From Rhizobium sp. C1 (GTDB lineage Bacteria; Pseudomonadota; Alphaproteobacteria; Rhizobiales; Rhizobiaceae), in assembly GCF_021026335.1 (NCBI RefSeq), contig NZ_JAJNCY010000015.1, positions 1-38,662 of the forward strand: 38,662 bases of DNA. Reading direction: 5' to 3'. A program made the translations under genes and the position numbers. Positions 27,149 to 38,662 of the stretch are shown here, piece by piece (within the stretch, counting starts at the first letter, position 1; each line of letters opens with the position of its first letter). The notes under the pieces were generated by a model. That model saw only the letters and a program-made list of their open reading frames with translations, was not told the DNA's origin and searched no databases.

Positions 27149-27273
27149 GTCGATCTCCGATGTGCCGGAACTAGGCAGTAAATCACAGGTAGCAACAATT
27201 TTACCAATTCTCTTCGCCCGACCTTAAACACTCTGCGGTATTTCAGCACGATAGTATCGGCGGAGTTTTGAAC

Positions 27274-28647
27274 ATGTTGCCCGGATTTTTTAGGGACAAG
27301 GCAGGTAATTTCGGTATTTTGACGGCCTTGCTGATCGTCCCGATCATCGGTGTCGCTGGACTTGCCGTCGATTACACGAACGCGCTTTCGATCAAAGCGA
27401 AGCTCCAGGGCGCCGGCGACGCCGCAGCACTTGCCGCCATTTCAAGCTCCTCCCCCGGCATGCAGGCCGCCTTCGCCATGAAGGGCGACGGGACGGTTCC
27501 GATTGCGGAAAGCGACGCGAAGGCATTCTTCCGGGGCCAGTTGCAGAATGTGAAGGGCTATACCGTCGATTCCGTCGACGCCAGCATCGTGAAGACCGGC
27601 AAGAGCATGAGCTCCGTCGTCAACTACAAGGCGACGATACCGACCTATCTTTCGAAAATCCTCGGCCAACCGGTCATCAAGGTCGCCGGCCGCGCCACGG
27701 CGGTCTACGAGGTCGCGACGTATCGCAATTTCTATCTCCTTCTCGACAACACGCCATCCATGGGCATCGCCGCCTCGCAAACAGACATCGACAAGATGAT
27801 CAGCCTGACCAAGGCGAGAGACAAGCGGGTCTACAACATATCGAACTCCGAGGGATGCGCCTTTGCCTGCCACATCAGGATCACGAAACCAAATGGCAAA
27901 ATAATCGAGGACCCGAACGATAACTACCATCTCGCAACAGACAAGAACAACAAGGTGACAACCCGCATCGACGTCGTTGCCACAGCCACAGCGAGATTGT
28001 TACAGGAAGCATCGGCTAACCGCGGAAACAACAAAAATTTGTACCGCATGGGTGTCTATACATTCGGCAAATCCGCCGAAAACATGCAGCTTCAGGAAGT
28101 CGTCGCTCCGACAACCGACCTGGAGACGGCCGCCGACACCGCCAAGGCGAAGGTCAATCTCATGACCATACCGGAGCAGAACTACAACAACGACCAGATC
28201 ACGAGCTTTGACAGTACGCTGGCGCAATTGGGAGCCAAGATGGGCTTTGCCGGCGATGGCAATAGTCTCGCCACACCTCAGAAAATTATCTTCATGGTGT
28301 CCGATGGCGTTGGCGACAGCAACAAGCCCGCGACCTGCACCAAGCCCCTGTCCGGCAGTACCCGCTGCCAGGAACCCATCGATACCAAAGCCTGCGACGC
28401 TCTGAAGAAGCAGGGTTACACGATCGCCATCCTATACACGACATATCTTCCGCTTCCGACAACAGACGCTCAGAATAACACCACATGGTACGGTCTGTGG
28501 ATTGCCCCATTCCAGAGCGAGATCGGAACGCGCATGAAGGCCTGCGCCACACCCGGCCTCTATTTCGAGGCCACGACGCAGGGCATCTCGGATGCGATGA
28601 CGGCGCTGTTCAACAAGATCGTCTCCATGCCGCGCCTCACCGGTTGA
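27274..28647 (+). CDS. TadG-like pilus-assembly protein with VWA-type domain
   Basis: The 457-residue protein starts with a TadE/TadG-type N-terminus: a short basic leader (FFRDKAGNF), one transmembrane helix (about residues 14-33) and the following AVDYTNAL...KLQGAGDAAALAA segment. A von Willebrand factor A-like domain spans about residues 150-450. Its metal site is atypical, DNTPSMG in place of DxSxS. Several Cys pairs (EGCAFACH, ATCTKP, SGSTRCQ) suggest periplasmic disulphides. ATG 27274 has CGGAG eight bases upstream; TTG 27268 is an alternative. The rest of a tad/cpa pilus cluster is absent here, so it is an orphan whose role in a pilus or surface structure is not proven. Confidence 0.82.
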   Translation: MLPGFFRDKAGNFGILTALLIVPIIGVAGLAVDYTNALSIKAKLQGAGDAAALAAISSSSPGMQAAFAMKGDGTVPIAESDAKAFFRGQLQNVKGYTVDSVDASIVKTGKSMSSVVNYKATIPTYLSKILGQPVIKVAGRATAVYEVATYRNFYLLLDNTPSMGIAASQTDIDKMISLTKARDKRVYNISNSEGCAFACHIRITKPNGKIIEDPNDNYHLATDKNNKVTTRIDVVATATARLLQEASANRGNNKNLYRMGVYTFGKSAENMQLQEVVAPTTDLETAADTAKAKVNLMTIPEQNYNNDQITSFDSTLAQLGAKMGFAGDGNSLATPQKIIFMVSDGVGDSNKPATCTKPLSGSTRCQEPIDTKACDALKKQGYTIAILYTTYLPLPTTDAQNNTTWYGLWIAPFQSEIGTRMKACATPGLYFEATTQGISDAMTALFNKIVSMPRLTG

Positions 28648-29449: not shown

Positions 29450-29938
29450 ATGAACGAAATAAATTCCACGGATGAGCAGGACGCCGTACGCCGCCTGGAA
29501 ATCCTTCATGTTCTCGACCAGTGGCAGGACGCCATACAGGGTTTTGATGAGGCCATCGGCAACAAGCTCGGCCTGATCAACGCCGAACACCGCTGCCTGA
29601 AGGCCCTCATTGACGGACCGAAGACGGCAGGCCAGCTTGCGGTGGCTTCCGGCCTGACGCCGGCGGCAGCAACCTCGATGATCGACCGGCTGGAAAAGCG
29701 CGGCTTCGTCGAGCGTCAGCGCGACGAGACCGACCGCCGCAAGGTGGTGGTCGCCATGACGCAGCCCGCCAGCGACACGCTGGACACATTCTACAAGCCT
29801 CTGGCCCATGACGCGGCCGCCATGCTGGCCAATTTCGGCCAGACCGAACTGTCCGTCGTGGAAGCCTTCGTGAAAAAGGCCTTTACGCTCCAGCAGGCGC
29901 ACAGGGAGAGGGTCGTTGCGGAGACCGTCGCCCCTTAA
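29450..29938 (+). CDS. MarR-family transcriptional regulator
   Basis: This 162-residue dimeric winged-helix regulator has the recognition region KTAGQLAVASGLTPAAATSM (residues about 53-72) and the wing DRLEKRGFVERQRDETDRRK with the conserved DRR. Flanking helices form the dimer interface. The start ATG 29450 has only a weak ribosome binding site. tspO follows 83 bp downstream in the same direction and may be a target, but this is only from position. The ligand is unknown. Confidence 0.88.
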   Translation: MNEINSTDEQDAVRRLEILHVLDQWQDAIQGFDEAIGNKLGLINAEHRCLKALIDGPKTAGQLAVASGLTPAAATSMIDRLEKRGFVERQRDETDRRKVVVAMTQPASDTLDTFYKPLAHDAAAMLANFGQTELSVVEAFVKKAFTLQQAHRERVVAETVAP

Positions 29939-30021: not shown

Positions 30022-30501
30022 ATGACGAACACGACCGCGAACAAGCTCCGCCCGCTGCTGGTTCACGCGCTGGCCATTCTTGCCGTTGTAACAGTCGGTG
30101 CGGCGATCGGCCTGACCGTTGGGCCGGACGAGTGGTACCGCTCGCTCGCCAAACCCGTCTTCAATCCGCCGGCCTGGGTCTTCGGACCGGTCTGGACCAT
30201 TCTCTACGTCCTCATCGGCATCGCGTTTGCCCGAACTTTCCTGCGCGATCCAAAAGGCCCGGCCATGCAGATCTGGATCGTCCAGATGCTACTGAACTGG
30301 AGCTGGACGCCGCTCTGGTTCGGGCTTCACATGATGTGGGGCGCGTTTGCCGTCATTGTCGCGCTCTGGCTGTCCATCCTGGCCTTCATCGCCGTGACGC
30401 GGAAATCCGATCCTGTTTCGGCCCTTCTTTTCGTGCCCTATCTCGCCTGGGTCTCCTTCGCCGGCATTCTCAACGGCACTGTGGCCGGGATGAACAGCTG
30501 A
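30022..30501 (+). CDS. tspO: TspO/MBR tryptophan-rich sensory protein
   Basis: The 159-residue membrane protein with five transmembrane helices binds tetrapyrroles such as protoporphyrin; in Rhodobacter and Sinorhizobium TspO modulates stress and pigment or nutrient responses. Family features are WYRSLAKPVFNPPAWVFGPVWTILY (residues about 38-62, shown as two contiguous motifs), the Trp-rich LNWSWTPLWFG in helix 3 and PYLAWVSFAGILN in helix 5. A strong AAGGAGAG precedes ATG 30022. Confidence 0.93.
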   Translation: MTNTTANKLRPLLVHALAILAVVTVGAAIGLTVGPDEWYRSLAKPVFNPPAWVFGPVWTILYVLIGIAFARTFLRDPKGPAMQIWIVQMLLNWSWTPLWFGLHMMWGAFAVIVALWLSILAFIAVTRKSDPVSALLFVPYLAWVSFAGILNGTVAGMNS

Positions 30502-30570: not shown

Positions 30571-32265
30571 ATGAGCGAACTGGAACGGCGCATCGATCAG
30601 GGAACCGGGCGTGAGCATGCGGACATCGTGCTCAAGAACGGCCGCTTCTTCGATCTGGTGACGGGCGAACTCGTCGCATCCGATATTGCCATTTGCGGAG
30701 AGACGATCGTCGGGACATGCGGTGATTACACCGGCAAACGCGAGATCGACATCGCCGGCAAGATCGTCGTGCCCGGCTTCATCGATACGCATCTGCATAT
30801 CGAATCCTCCCTCGTGACCCCGCATGAATTCGACCGCTGCGTCCTGCCCTATGGCGTGACGACGGTGATCTGCGACCCGCACGAGATCGCCAACGTGCTG
30901 GGTACGGAAGGCATCGAATTCTTCCTCGCCTCTGCTGAAGAAACGATCATGGACATCCGCGTCCAGCTCTCCTCCTGCGTTCCTGCGACCCATCTGGAAA
31001 CGGCAGGTGCGGATCTGCCCATCGAGAAGCTTCTGCCCTACCGCAACCATCCGAAGGTCATCGGGCTGGCCGAATTCATGAACTTCCCCGGCGTCGTCTA
31101 CAAGGACCCGGTCTGCATGGCCAAGCTGGAAGCCTTTCAGGGCCAGCATATCGATGGCCACGCTCCTCTCCTCTCCGGCAACGATCTGAACGGCTATCTC
31201 TCCGCCGGCATCCGCACCGACCACGAATGCACCAGTGCTGCCGAGGCGATGGAGAAGATCCGCAAGGGCATGCACATTCTCGTGCGCGAAGGCTCGGTTT
31301 CGAAGGATCTGCATGCGCTGATGCCGATCCTCACGGAGCGGCTCTCGCCCTTCCTGGCCCTCTGCACCGATGATCGCAACCCTCTGGACATCGCCGAACA
31401 GGGCCATCTCGACTATCTGATCCGCACCGCGATCGCCCACGGCGTCGAACCGCTGGCGATCTATCGCGCCGCCTCCATCTCCGCCGCCCGCGCCTTCGGC
31501 CTGCGCGACCGCGGCCTCGTGGCGCCGGGCTGGCGCGCCGACCTCGTCGTCATCGACAGTCTGGAAAACTGCAAGGCCAAGACTGTGTTCGCTGGCGGCC
31601 GCGAGGTCACGGACGCCCTGTTCGCGACGCGCAAGCTGGTCGCCCCGGTCGGGCTGACCAGCGTCAAGGCGCGCACCGTCAAGGCGGCCGATTTCGGCAT
31701 TCCGGCAACCGAAGGTGAAACCTCCGTCATTGGCGTACTGCCCGGCAAGATCATCACCGAGCACCGCCGGTTCAAGCTACCCGTCGATGGCAACCAGACA
31801 ACCGTGGATTTCGAGCGCGACATCCTGAAAGTCGCCGTCATCGAGCGCCACGGCAAGAACGGCAACCATGCCAACGGCTTCGTACAGGGCTTCGGGCTAA
31901 AAAGAGGCGCGATCGCCTCCACAGTCGGCCACGACAGCCACAATATCTGCGTTGTCGGCGCCAATGACGAGGATATGGCAGTCGCCGCCAATCGTCTGTC
32001 GGACATCAATGGCGGCTTCGTCGTCGTTCAGGATGGCAAGGTCACGGGCGAAATCGCGCTTCCCGTCGCCGGCCTCATGAGCCTTGAGCCTTATGAATCG
32101 GTGCGCGACACGCTGCACCATCTGCGACAGGCCGCGATTGCGCTGGGCGCAACGCTGGAAGAACCCTTCCTGCAGTTGGCTTTCCTGCCGCTGCCGGTCA
32201 TTCCGCACCTGAAGATTTCGGATCGCGGCCTGGTCGATGTCGACAAGTTCATGCTGATCGGATGA
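30571..32265 (+). CDS. ade: Adenine deaminase
   Basis: This 564-residue amidohydrolase converts adenine to hypoxanthine in purine salvage. The metal-binding sites are visible in [12 protein letters not shown] (about residues 69-80), [24 protein letters not shown] and CTDDRNP. The C-terminal domain holds [11 protein letters not shown] and [10 protein letters not shown], typical of bacterial Ade. Length is usual for the family. The ribosome binding site is AAGGGAT about 10 bases before ATG 30571. The 3' end overlaps the convergent hybrid-kinase gene by 17 bp. Confidence 0.95.
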
Positions 32266-35200
32266 AGTCGTCCGTGATCTTGGCTTCGCCCGCGACCAGC
32301 GAACGCCAGACATCGATCTTCGCCGCCAGAAGCTCCGGTGTGAAGGGCTTGGGCAGGTAATCGTCCATATCGGCATCGAGGCAGGCGTTGCGGTCGTGGT
32401 CCTGCGTTCTCGCGGTGATCGCGATGATTGGCGTGCGGCGCAGGCCGTCTCTCGCCTCTTCGGCGCGGATCGCCGCCGTCGCCTCGTAGCCGTCGATCTG
32501 CGGCATCATGATATCCATGATCACGATTTCGGGCTTGTGTTTCTGCCACAGCCGCACGGCCTCGACGCCATCGCGCGCGATGCGGAAGCTCAGGCCCAGG
32601 GAACCGAGGATCTGCCGGCACACCAGCGCATTCACCTCATTGTCTTCGGCAACCAGCACGTCAACCGGCTGATCATCGGATATTTCGACAGCCTCCAGCT
32701 CGGCCTCTACAGAAACGCGCGCATCGGCCTGTGCGCCGCGGCGGCGCGCCGCGATAACGTCGCAGAGCGCCCCGAGAAGCAGCGAGCTGCGCACCGGCCG
32801 CTGCAACTGCGCGTCCACTGCAATCTCTGCAACACCTTGAAGGGTTTCTGTCAGGACAGACGTCAACAGAACCACGGCCGTCGCCGCAAAGCGCGGGTCA
32901 GCACGCAGGCGTTCAATGAGCCGGCCGGCCCCGCGCCGCTCAAGCGCACCGCTGACGATGACGATATCGACGTTGATCCCGGCGCCGTCGGCAGCCTCGA
33001 GAACCGCCCAGGCCTCTTCGACACTCTCCACACCGGTCGCGTCAAACTTCCAGCCCGCCAGCATTCTTCCGACCGATTGCCGGGAAACGGCGATATCGTC
33101 CACCAGCAGCACGCGCGCGCCCGCGGCCGGAAAAACATCATCATCCTCTGCGCGCGTTTCCGCGCATTCGAGGGGAAGCGCCACACGGAAAGTGCTGCCG
33201 CACCCGATTTCACTTTCCAGTTCGATCGTCCCGCCAAAAAGCCGCACGAGGCTGACATTGGTCGGCAAGCCGATCCCCAGCCCCTCCATGCGCCCGGCCC
33301 CGTTGTCCGAGGTGCGCGCATTGGACTCGAAAATCACGCGCTGATGCTCCGGCGCAATCCCGCAGCCCGTGTCCTCCACCTCAATGGTCAGTATGCGTCT
33401 GCCCTCGACCCTCGGCCCTGTCGCGAGACGAATTTCCACATGGCCGCGATCAGTGAAGCGAATGGCGTTGGAAACGAGATTGAAGATGATCTGGCGGAAC
33501 CGCAGCGCATCGCCGAAAACCCGCTTCGGGATATCCGGGCCCGGGGAAACGACGACGACGAGGTTCTTTTCCTCGGCCTTCGCCGACAGGATGGATGCAG
33601 TGTCCTCCAGTGCTTCCAGCGGATTGAAAAAGACGGGATGAAGTTCCAGCCGGCCGGAATCGAGCTTCGAAAAGTCCAGAATATCATTGATGAGCGTCAT
33701 CAGCGACTTGGCCGACTTGCTGATGGCGCTCACATAGGTCTTTTGTCGCGGGTCGAGATCTGAGCGAGACAGCAGCTCCGTCATGCTGAGCACGCCGTTC
33801 ATCGGTGTCCGGAACTCGCGGCTGACCGTTGCGAGAAAGTCGGACTTCGCCCGATCCGCCTTCGCGGCGCGGTGCAGCAGGCGTTCCAGTTCTTCCTGTC
33901 GCCGGCGCAACTCCGTCACGTCGGTCACAAGGCCGATCATGCCGCCATCATCCGTTGGCTTGACCTCAAGCCGGATCCAACGTACGCCGCCGATGCAGAA
34001 GCTGATGTCACTGGTCCTGCGGTTCAGGGTGTCCTCGCGAAGCTGCTCCAGCAACGTCAACGGGTCGGCACCGAAATCTCCGCGCGCAGCACAATGGGCA
34101 AAGATTTCGTCCCATCGCCCACCGATGCGGATCATGCCGGACGGCATATCGAGCAAACGCTCAACAGCGCCGTTACACACCAGGACATCGCCATTTGCCG
34201 AAATCATCAGCAGGCCTTGAGCCATACTGACCAGCGCCTTATCCATCAACGCGGCGGTCTCGGCGAGCTTCGCGCGGGCTTCGTCAACAGCGCGGTCCTG
34301 CCGGCGCAACTGGCTGATATTGGTAAACGTCACGACCGCCCGGGCACCGCCAATCTGCTGCCCCTGCATGACGTAGGTATCGCCCGCAGCCGTCGTCACT
34401 TCGCGCAAAGGCAGTTCGCCGGTCGTCAGCATCGCGCGCCAGTTTTCCTTGGCCGCTTCGCGCTGTTCATCCGTCAGGTCGAAGAGTCCTCTTTCGACGC
34501 TGTGATCGATCATGTCGAGGAAACAGTGTCCGACCAGCCCATCAAGCCCGATCCCCGACCACTTTCGCAGAAGATTCTCGTTGGCAAGCTCCACCACCAG
34601 ATCGGCCTGACGGATCACCAGCACACCGGTTTCGATGCTGTTCATGATATCGGAAAGCTGCTGCCAGGCGGCCTGTGCATGATTGCGGGCGTCTTCCAGC
34701 TCCAGTTCGCGTTGCCGCAGGGCCGACATGTCGAGCAGCGACCCCACGATATAGGGTTTGCCGTCCGGCAGAATGGCACGGCTAATGCGTGACAGGATAT
34801 GCGCGCCTTCATCGGCCCTATGCCGCATTTCGGTCTCGCGCACCGAGACCTCTCCCGTCATCAGGACGCGATCATTCTCCTCGATATAGGTATCCGCCTC
34901 CTCGCCGAAAACGCTGCGCTCATCAAAGCCGAGAGCATTGAGCTTCCTGGTCTCGAGAAGCCCCCTCTCCACTTCGTTGGCATAGATCATGATATGGTTT
35001 TCGTCGCGGACGAAGACCGGAACCGGCAAGGCATCGAGCACCGCCTTGTAGAGGCTGACTTCGTCGCGCTGCCGGATCAGCAACGCCTCGCGTTCCTTGC
35101 TGTCGGTGATGTCCAGCCGCAGACCGACGACATAGCCATTCTCGAGCCGGCGGTTGATCAACCTGATCCAGCGTCCGGTTCTCAAGCGTGTCGTGGTTTC

Positions 35201-35920
35201 GAAATACGGCTGACGATAGGCCTCCAGCCGGTCCCGCACCCAGGCCTTGCACGCCCCCTCATCTGCGCCATCGACATCCGGATCGAGACCACGCTCGATG
35301 CCGCGTGTCAGAATGGCCGTCAGCGTCTCGCCACGATGGATCGACCCCATGTATCGCAGATAGATCTGTTCCATCTTGTCGTTGACGAAAGCGACGCGAT
35401 CTTCCGGGTCGATGATCAGAATGCCGGCATCGATATGGGAAAGCGCATTTTTGAGGACGGACAGGAAGGCAGGCTCGTTTTCTTCTTCCGCAGTCGGCAA
35501 AGTTACCACGGCTTCCGGCTCGTCCCCCTCCAGCACCCACCAGGGGGCGGTGGCAGCCGCCAGCATGGGCCGCGCGGGCTCGACATGCTCATAGAGAAAA
35601 ATCTCGCCCGTCTCGCTCACGAACTGCTCGATCTTGAGGCGCTGAACGCGATCGTCGGCGCCGATGGCCAGGTCAAGCTCGGCCTCGTTGCCAAAAACGA
35701 TGGCTTTGCGCTCCATCTCGTCACGCAGGCCATTGGCGGCGGCGTTGCTCAGATCGGCGTCTCGCAAACCGGAAAACGCGTGCGGCTCCATGCGGTAAAG
35801 ACCGGCAAAGGCGGCGCTGACGGCGACATAGCGCAGTTCCGAATCCTTGATGCAGGCAGGAACGCGGGTGCGAGCCAACCTTTGGCACGCCATAGCCAGC
35901 AGATCCACGCCTTGCTGCAC
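32249..35920 (-). CDS. Hybrid multi-PAS histidine kinase-like protein with His-to-Arg H-box and degenerate first receiver
   Basis: This 1223-residue soluble protein has no transmembrane helix. About five PAS domains (roughly 15-115, 155-275, 285-405, 415-535, 545-670) precede a DHp-like segment (690-755), an HATPase domain (800-920) and two receivers (935-1060, 1085-1205). The H-box reads [13 protein letters not shown], so the phospho-accepting His is Arg701 (codon CGC at 33818-33820). The ATP-binding boxes look complete: N-box [11 protein letters not shown]1 DTGCG (850-854), G2 GLGIGL (880-885). In the first receiver the phospho-accepting Asp is Ser990 and the usual Lys is Arg1041. The second receiver is canonical (Asp1136 in [13 protein letters not shown]). 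The GTG start at 35920 has GGGAGA six bases upstream. Autophosphorylation on the usual His appears impossible; the protein may act by ATP-driven conformation or take phosphate from a partner. Confidence 0.9.
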
Positions 35921-36352
35921 CTGGTTTCTCCCGAATCCTTTAGAACTTCCGTTGCTTAACTAGGCACATGGAGCGTTAAAGAATTGGTTAACCATGCCGT
36001 CTTATCTTTAACCGTTGGCGAGTTTCCCGCTGCGATGCAGCATAATCTGCCTGCTCACTTGCCCTTGGTCTTGACATTCAGACCCTTTCATAAGACAAGC
36101 ACTCAGCTTTCCCCTTCCGGCCGCCGCGTGAGCTGGCCGTTGCGACACCTGACAAGGCAAAAAGGCCATCAGGGCAACAGAAGGAAAGGCGCGTTGCATT
36201 GATGCCGGGTTCCACGCCGGCGGCGCTGAAAGCAAAATAACTTAACCCACAAGTTCCCAATTCACGCGGGGTTCTTGACGCGAACGACAACCGCAGTCCG
36301 GTCATGGCGCTGCGGGTTATCGGCGTTTTGCGTCCCCGAAAGGCTGAATACC
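35921..36352. other. Divergent intergenic region, hybrid kinase / DEAD-box helicase
   Basis: This 432-bp stretch has no gene. It contains a TTGACA at 36071-36076 without a well-spaced -10, and a hairpin CCTGA...GGC-AAAAAG-GCC...TCAGG (36148-36173). A GC-rich fold-back lies near 36203-36222. Much of it may be the 5' leader of the helicase mRNA, but no promoter could be fixed. Confidence 0.4.
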
Positions 36353-37795
36353 TTGACTAAATTTTCCGACCTCGGTCTCTCCGCTGGCACATTGCGTACG
36401 CTGGAAGGCATGGAGTTCACCACCCCCACCGCGATCCAGGTGAAGGCGATCCCGCTGGTGCTGGAGCGCCGCGACATCATCGGCCTCGCCCAGACCGGCA
36501 CCGGCAAGACGGCGGCCTTCGGCCTGCCGATCATCGAGCATCTCCTGAACGACAACCAGCGCCCGGAACCCAAGGCCGTGCGCACGCTGATTCTCGCTCC
36601 GACCCGCGAACTGGTCAACCAGATCACCGGCAACCTGCGCGCCTTCCTCAAGGACACCAAGCTGCGCATCGCGCTCGTCGTCGGTGGCGCATCGATCCAC
36701 AAGCAGGCCCAGCTTCTGGCCCGCGGAACCGACATTCTCGTCGCAACCCCCGGCCGCCTTCTCGACCTGTGCAAGCGCAATGACGTCAACCTGACGGCCG
36801 TGCGCTACCTCGTGCTGGACGAAGCCGACCAGATGCTCGACCTCGGCTTCATCCACGACCTGCGCCGCATTTCGAAAATGGTTCCGAAGCGCCGCCAGAC
36901 CCTGCTCTTCTCGGCCACCATGCCCAAGCAGATCGAGGAGCTCGCACAGGAATACCTGACCGACCCGCTGCGCGTCGAAGCCGCCGCCCCCGGCAAGACG
37001 GCCGACAAGATCGAACAGTTCGTCCATCACGTCACCGGCAAGGACCAGAAGACGCAGCTGCTGCGCCAGTCGCTGACCGACAACCCGGACGGTCGCGCCA
37101 TGGTCTTCCTCAAGACCAAGCACAGTGCCGAGAAGCTTTCCAAGCACCTGGAAAACATCGGCTTTGCCGCTGCATCCATCCACGGCAACAAGAGCCAGAG
37201 TCAGCGCGAACGCGCGCTCAAGGCCTTCCGCGACGGTGAAATGCGTGTTCTCGTGGCAACCGACGTCGCCGCCCGCGGCATCGACATTCCCGGCGTGACG
37301 CATGTCTACAACTACGACCTGCCGACGGTCGCCGAATCCTACGTCCACCGCATCGGCCGCACTGCGCGCGCCGGCAAGGATGGCATCGCGATCGCCTTCT
37401 GCGCTCCGGACGAAATCAAGATGCTCCGCGACATCGAGAAGCTGACGAAGATGCCGTTGACGGTCGCCAGCGGCGAGCCGCCGGCGGATGTACGTGGCGG
37501 CAACCAGCCATCGCGTGGCGCAGCGCGCCCGGCCCGCAAGCCGCACCGCAAGGGTCAGGGCCGTCCCCAGCAGGGTGGCGAAGGCGCAGAGGCTCGTGGC
37601 GAACAGAACGCACGTCCGGCCCGCCGTCCGCATGCGGAAGCCGCAGGCGGCGGCGAGCGCAAGCAGGGCAACAACGGCCACCATCAGGCCGGTCGCCCGA
37701 ATGGCGATCGCAACCGCAACGACCGTCCCGGCCAGAAGCGCGGCGGCCCCCGTGGCGGCAAGCCCGGCGGCTACACGCGCGCGGCTCAGGGCTGA
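36353..37795 (+). CDS. DEAD-box ATP-dependent RNA helicase (RhlE-type)
   Basis: This 480-residue RNA helicase likely takes part in ribosome assembly or RNA decay, as RhlE-group enzymes do. Motifs in order: Q motif TPTAIQ (24-30 region), motif I AQTGTGKT (46-53), Ia PTRELV, Ib TPGRLLDL, II DEAD (156-159), III SAT (187-189), V ATDVAARGID and VI HRIGRTARAG. From about residue 385 a Gly/Arg/Asn-rich basic tail follows, a nonspecific RNA-binding extension. The start is probably TTG 36353 (GAAAGG ten bases upstream; the family begins with T-x-F-x-D-L-G-L); an upstream in-frame ATG at 36275 would add residues unlike the family. It ends at a strong terminator. Confidence 0.92.
   Translation: MTKFSDLGLSAGTLRTLEGMEFTTPTAIQVKAIPLVLERRDIIGLAQTGTGKTAAFGLPIIEHLLNDNQRPEPKAVRTLILAPTRELVNQITGNLRAFLKDTKLRIALVVGGASIHKQAQLLARGTDILVATPGRLLDLCKRNDVNLTAVRYLVLDEADQMLDLGFIHDLRRISKMVPKRRQTLLFSATMPKQIEELAQEYLTDPLRVEAAAPGKTADKIEQFVHHVTGKDQKTQLLRQSLTDNPDGRAMVFLKTKHSAEKLSKHLENIGFAAASIHGNKSQSQRERALKAFRDGEMRVLVATDVAARGIDIPGVTHVYNYDLPTVAESYVHRIGRTARAGKDGIAIAFCAPDEIKMLRDIEKLTKMPLTVASGEPPADVRGGNQPSRGAARPARKPHRKGQGRPQQGGEGAEARGEQNARPARRPHAEAAGGGERKQGNNGHHQAGRPNGDRNRNDRPGQKRGGPRGGKPGGYTRAAQG

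Positions 37796-37926: not shown

Positions 37927-38662
<736 letters not shown>

Follow-up and report, generated by a model that had tools for sequence, protein, structure and literature searches.

RetS of Pseudomonas aeruginosa is described as a non-autophosphorylating hybrid kinase with two receivers, of which the second (REC2) takes phosphate from GacS, and which keeps its H box while its HATPase is degenerate (PMC5992135). DivL, an alphaproteobacterial pseudokinase (PDB 4q20), is a PAS-containing kinase with a non-histidine residue at the acceptor position, a tyrosine reported as conserved across homologues save one alanine; its histidine kinase module is described as a DHp domain plus a CA domain only (PMC4211667). 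In an evolved Corynebacterium glutamicum, a recent mutation of ChrS, given as a CA-domain frameshift under laboratory selection, made an ordinary kinase inactive and changed the network (PMC9491836). Pseudo-receivers reportedly account for several percent of receiver domains (PMC12632262), and their placement between CA and a working receiver has been described before, with ShkA as the studied case (PMC7010744). Considered here is a hybrid histidine kinase gene from Rhizobium sp. C1, contained in a 38,662-nucleotide stretch of DNA (assembly GCF_021026335.1, contig NZ_JAJNCY010000015.1; hereafter the window), whose product has arginine, Arg701, at the position of the phospho-accepting histidine. 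It is probably an ordinary hybrid kinase carrying a recent loss-of-autokinase allele, produced by one transition, His to Arg, in this genome.

The best match to the window protein among solved structures is PDB 6qrj (residues 695-1205, E 8e-55), an entry titled just "Hybrid kinase" that we take to be ShkA of Caulobacter; residues R324, Y338, D369, D370, and R371 of the ShkA paper fit the letters of 6qrj at an offset of 12. Both proteins have the order DHp-CA-REC1-REC2, in which REC1, following CA, is a pseudo-receiver and the receiver at the C terminus is canonical (for ShkA, PMC7010744). They differ in the H box, which in ShkA reads SHEFRTP and keeps the histidine that Arg701 replaces here. 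Sensing of cyclic di-GMP through REC1 in the ShkA mode is rejected for the window protein, in which Thr1024, Gln1038, and Glu-Ala-Glu at 1072-1074 align with R324, Y338, and D369-D370-R371, respectively.

The two-receiver layout is also that of RetS, but the defect lies elsewhere: the window protein lacks the histidine and has an HATPase_c domain scoring 81 bits. It shares with DivL the PAS input and the non-histidine acceptor residue; however, Arg701 occurs in one genome only, with histidine in four syntenic orthologues, and the protein adds two receiver stretches. From ChrS it differs in that the change is a missense substitution at the histidine itself. Titles and abstract openings, from part of the literature matches, held no natural His-to-Arg kinase, a survey that leaves room for such a case in print.

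The Phospho-Accepting Position and Its Relatives

The kinase gene (32249-35920, minus strand, as are all parts of the kinase given below) is open through 1223 codons from a GTG start and encodes a PAS-rich sensor followed by HisKA, HATPase_c, REC1, and REC2, an assignment based on Pfam and on the syntenic orthologues. HisKA scores 67.6 bits (cut-off 26.9) and HATPase_c 81.1 bits, with two Response_reg stretches and several PAS families, so that HisKA, HATPase_c, and receiver stand above cut-off in one chain, as in a hybrid kinase. The sensor part (residues 1-680, 33881-35920) contains several PAS domains (PAS_7, PAS_4, PAS_8). The DHp domain (residues 681-760, 33641-33880; Pfam HisKA at residues 691-756, HisKA place at 33653-33850) includes codon 701 (33818-33820), which reads CGC in the window and CAC in the nine relatives compared at codon level. 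Apart from the histidine the context of the H box is intact (SREFRT), and Glu702 and Thr705 are retained. The position falls inside the first DHp helix in a predicted structure of residues 675-1223, made from nine sequences, with six distant kinase loci from a scan of genome contigs included in the alignment; this model is poor (mean predicted local distance difference test score 68.9, predicted template modelling score 0.40) and was used for little else.

A genus sample of six genomes, including that of the window, gave a match at E 1e-120 or better in every one. Full-length orthologues, 70-73% identical and flanked by the same two neighbours, are present in four of the other five, and each of these has histidine at position 701, encoded by CAC. 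The fifth (G003) has a relative of 37-38% identity, adjoining an adenine deaminase gene, with histidine at 701 and aspartate and lysine in receiver 1. A wider search covered 297 genomes of the family, an even sample of a larger group, and 29 of them had a match at E 1e-200 or better, the window's own genome included; together with two further sequences, one of which (L089) covers residues 286-1205 only, these make up an alignment of 31, with orthologue sequences taken from tblastn-guided frames. Two close relatives in the contig scan, L031 and L032, are taken to be the G004 and G002 loci and were not recounted, and the other 48 loci of that scan are distant kinases outside the residue counts. 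The H-box histidine expected of a hybrid kinase is present in 30 of the 31 aligned proteins, and arginine occurs in the window alone; among all relatives compared, Arg701 is private to this genome as far as the aligned sequences go.

The original prediction, made from the DNA letters alone, had described a hybrid kinase with Arg701 (CGC) in its H box, an intact frame of 1223 codons, and a degenerate first receiver, and had proposed a maintained function, a pseudokinase scaffold among the options, with an orthologue alignment to show whether Arg701 and Ser990 are conserved. Codon, residue, and frame were read exactly. Conservation of Arg701 was not borne out, with histidine in each of the four close orthologues and throughout the 30 aligned relatives, and because the orthologues carry histidine the reading of the protein as a maintained pseudokinase is weakened. 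The part of that interpretation that holds is receiver 1, a maintained pseudo-receiver in all five clade members (the window protein and its four sister orthologues). Nor does the intact frame argue for a maintained function, as had been supposed, since the frame would survive a recent missense change as well.

Within its own genome the window gene also stands apart. Pfam HisKA (PF00512) has 38 matching places there with E no higher than 0.001, of which 34 exceed the curated cut-off. At the other 37 the acceptor position is histidine in 36 and tyrosine in one (L123), so that the window gene represents the only unexplained acceptor loss among HisKA places. L123 itself (G000:C17:361372-361575, minus strand) belongs to a DivL-like protein, a known kind of pseudokinase; its best match among solved structures is DivL (4q20, E 2.5e-40).

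Receiver Domains and ATP Site

Receiver 1 (residues 934-1060, 32741-33121) has serine at the phospho-aspartate position (Ser990, codon at 32951-32953) and arginine at the position of the conserved lysine (Arg1041, 32798-32800). Receiver 2 (residues 1086-1210, 32291-32665) is canonical and complete at the positions checked, including the intact phospho-acceptor Asp1136 (32513-32515). These residues and their numbering are exactly as first read, and Ser990, unlike Arg701, proved to be conserved: Ser990 and Arg1041 are found in 5 of 5 clade members, and aspartate and lysine in the other 26 proteins of the alignment. On this comparison the degeneration of receiver 1 is clade-wide and has a history separate from that of Arg701. 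Pfam recognises two receiver stretches in the window protein and a single one per protein in the four sister orthologues. The alignment supports a maintained pseudo-receiver across the clade, one that is known in kind and adds a little to an established class.

The second acidic residue of receiver 1, at the equivalent of position 942, is missing from 10 of the 26 proteins outside the clade (L087, L095-L097, L100, L102, L103, and L107-L109). Nine of the ten form one clade in the tree and L102 stands apart, so the residue was lost at least twice there, besides the events in the window's clade.

The CA domain (residues 761-925, 33146-33640; Pfam at 803-918) had been taken to have canonical ATP-binding boxes throughout. 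This is correct for the N box, the D box residues, and the G2 box glycines, all of which are present, but not for the F box and ATP lid (residues 864-888, 33257-33331), whose remodelling spans the five-member clade: Phe867 is replaced by serine or asparagine, Gln869 is lost, Arg876 is replaced by glycine, and Thr881 by leucine, at positions where 24-26 of the 26 outgroup proteins share the outgroup residue. HATPase_c scores are 81-91 bits in the clade versus 93-98 in four outgroup proteins, and the lid is a low-confidence region of the model (fragment residues 193-208, protein residues 867-882). The remodelling is not specific to the window protein and extends to its four histidine-bearing sisters.

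Rates and Constraint

Identity among the five clade members is 70-79% for the kinase and 92-98% for the neighbouring helicase and deaminase; by this measure the kinase gene is fast-evolving within the genus. The stem of the clade is very long in the kinase tree (1.81). On the tree of all 31 proteins the window tip has a length of 0.24, and the distances from its fork to the four sisters are 0.22-0.28, so that overall the window protein has not evolved faster. The fork that splits it from its four sisters has support of 89/91, below the level that the tree program marks with a star, and the program flags a junction of the long stem of the five with another long branch.

Rate tests polarised by outgroups, for DHp, CA, and the two combined, gave p >= 0.12 in all 12 comparisons, which are not independent of one another. 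In REC1 the window protein is the slower in 4 of 4 comparisons (1-3 versus 11-16 changes). Pairwise ratios of nonsynonymous to synonymous substitution rates (dN/dS) in DHp lie at 0.04-0.07 for the four pairs that include the window, compared with 0.01-0.06 for the remaining six. With position 701 excluded, 75 DHp and CA columns are invariant in nine relatives, and the window protein is altered at one of them (Ala714Thr). In simulations without constraint (400 runs, tip dS set at 0.5 and 0.6), so few changes arose in at most 0.25% of runs if constraint was absent over at least 10% of the tip, and in 4.5-7.5% of runs if it was absent over 5%; a count this low is expected only where constraint was missing over no more than about 5% of the tip. 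These comparisons give no clear sign of decay in the kinase core, as would follow if the loss of the histidine is recent or if the core is still under constraint.

Proposed Consequences of the His-to-Arg Change

In the sister orthologues, PAS input would lead to autophosphorylation of His701, transfer to Asp1136 of REC2, and then passage to an HPt-like partner, while REC1, the pseudo-receiver, would act as a regulatory spacer. In the window protein, Arg701 is expected to prevent autophosphorylation. The residues, the private occurrence of Arg701 among the relatives compared, the clade-wide decay of receiver 1, the synteny, and the lack of clear core decay are direct observations; the loss of autokinase activity, its recency, and the relay itself we infer.

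What the altered protein may still do is suggested by kinases with engineered changes. CrdS H371A is reported to have no detectable kinase activity and to keep much phosphatase activity, giving a half-life of the phosphorylated regulator of 2.6 min, compared with 0.7 min with the wild type and 53.5 min without protein; a conserved threonine or asparagine is described as what counts for this activity (PMC3510030). By analogy the window protein might perhaps retain phosphatase activity through Glu702 and Thr705, and REC2, with its inspected positions all intact, could act as a sink for phosphate donated by a foreign kinase or HPt protein. Because the core lacks clear decay, the protein may still act as a scaffold, phosphatase, or phosphate sink. 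An Hpt domain search of the same genome found five places, four in frames of 744-918 residues and one in a frame of 159 residues, a result that offers no link to the kinase.

Several observations weigh against an ordinary kinase with a recent loss. Changes in DHp polarised by outgroups are higher in the window protein in 4 of 4 comparisons (3-4 versus 0-2, none significant), and its private changes in DHp amount to 6 of 72 columns, versus 1-2 of 67-68 in the others. Whole-gene dN/dS is 0.145-0.187 in the four window pairs versus 0.110-0.143 in the six others and leans toward somewhat weaker constraint on the window sequence. Both excesses, of private changes and of whole-gene dN/dS, could have a cause in the window's position as the earliest branch among the five and in near-saturated synonymous sites. 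The single change in 75 columns does not separate a recent loss from a long non-kinase role, since structure alone can hold such columns, and these columns are by choice the most constrained; a long non-kinase role predicts the same conservation of the core. Recency is moreover judged from a single strain of the species.

The leading alternative, which we hold with low but appreciable confidence, is a stable pseudokinase at the level of the species, in which the histidine was lost and the protein kept as a phosphatase (Glu702, Thr705), as a REC2 (Asp1136) sink, or both, damping the relay of another kinase as RetS does for GacS. The intact surroundings of the missing histidine, the CA glycines and N box, the canonical REC2, and the lack of clear core decay would all suit such a protein, and precedents are described in the phosphatase activity and REC2 sink of RetS (PMC5992135) and the phosphatase activity of CrdS H371A (PMC3510030). 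The ATP lid was already unusual across the clade, and the DHp counts tilt slightly toward more change in the window. On the other hand, the 30 other proteins of the alignment all lack Arg701, the tests on the kinase core all fall short of significance, and in PleC the equivalent change of the histidine is stated to have abolished both activities (PMC3510030). No partner kinase was identified in a search limited to Hpt domains.

A variant of this explanation, which we consider unlikely, places the pseudokinase near its birth: REC1 and the ATP lid would have changed earlier across the clade, the acceptor would now have been lost in one species, and selection would keep a phosphatase or a REC2 sink that damps a foreign relay, with the histidine-bearing kinase retained in the four sister species and available for direct comparison.

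A base-call or assembly error at codon 701 is improbable. In its favour, the change is a lone transition, known from one draft genome (22 contigs), where all 30 aligned relatives have histidine; against it, histidine is nowhere lost without explanation at the other 37 HisKA places, and the frame is intact. Substitution errors are rare in draft assemblies, which makes one on this very codon unlikely. Autophosphorylation on another histidine is the least credible explanation by far: His683 does lie in the DHp region and is absent from the four sister orthologues, but it sits 18 residues ahead of 701, in the first DHp helix and outside the H box, and the alignment places no histidine at the acceptor position.

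If the His-to-Arg change proves to be fixed in the species, the genus would provide a matched set, one presumably inactive and four histidine-bearing proteins in the same gene order, and the step from kinase to pseudokinase would become testable. If Arg701 is instead a null allele at the level of the strain, it has little import beyond suggesting that the kinase is dispensable.

Neighbouring Genes

The kinase gene lies between its two conserved neighbours: an adenine deaminase gene (30571-32265, plus strand), convergent with the kinase gene and overlapping its end by 17 bases, and a DEAD-box helicase gene (36275-37795, plus strand), divergent from it. Three other sequences nearby also vary considerably between the species, with 66-80% identity to the window: a Tad-like gene (27268-28647), a frame of 162 residues of unknown nature (29450-29938), and a TspO gene (30022-30501). 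A chemoreceptor signalling domain (37927-38583) lies near the contig end, the window being the entire contig of 38,662 bases.

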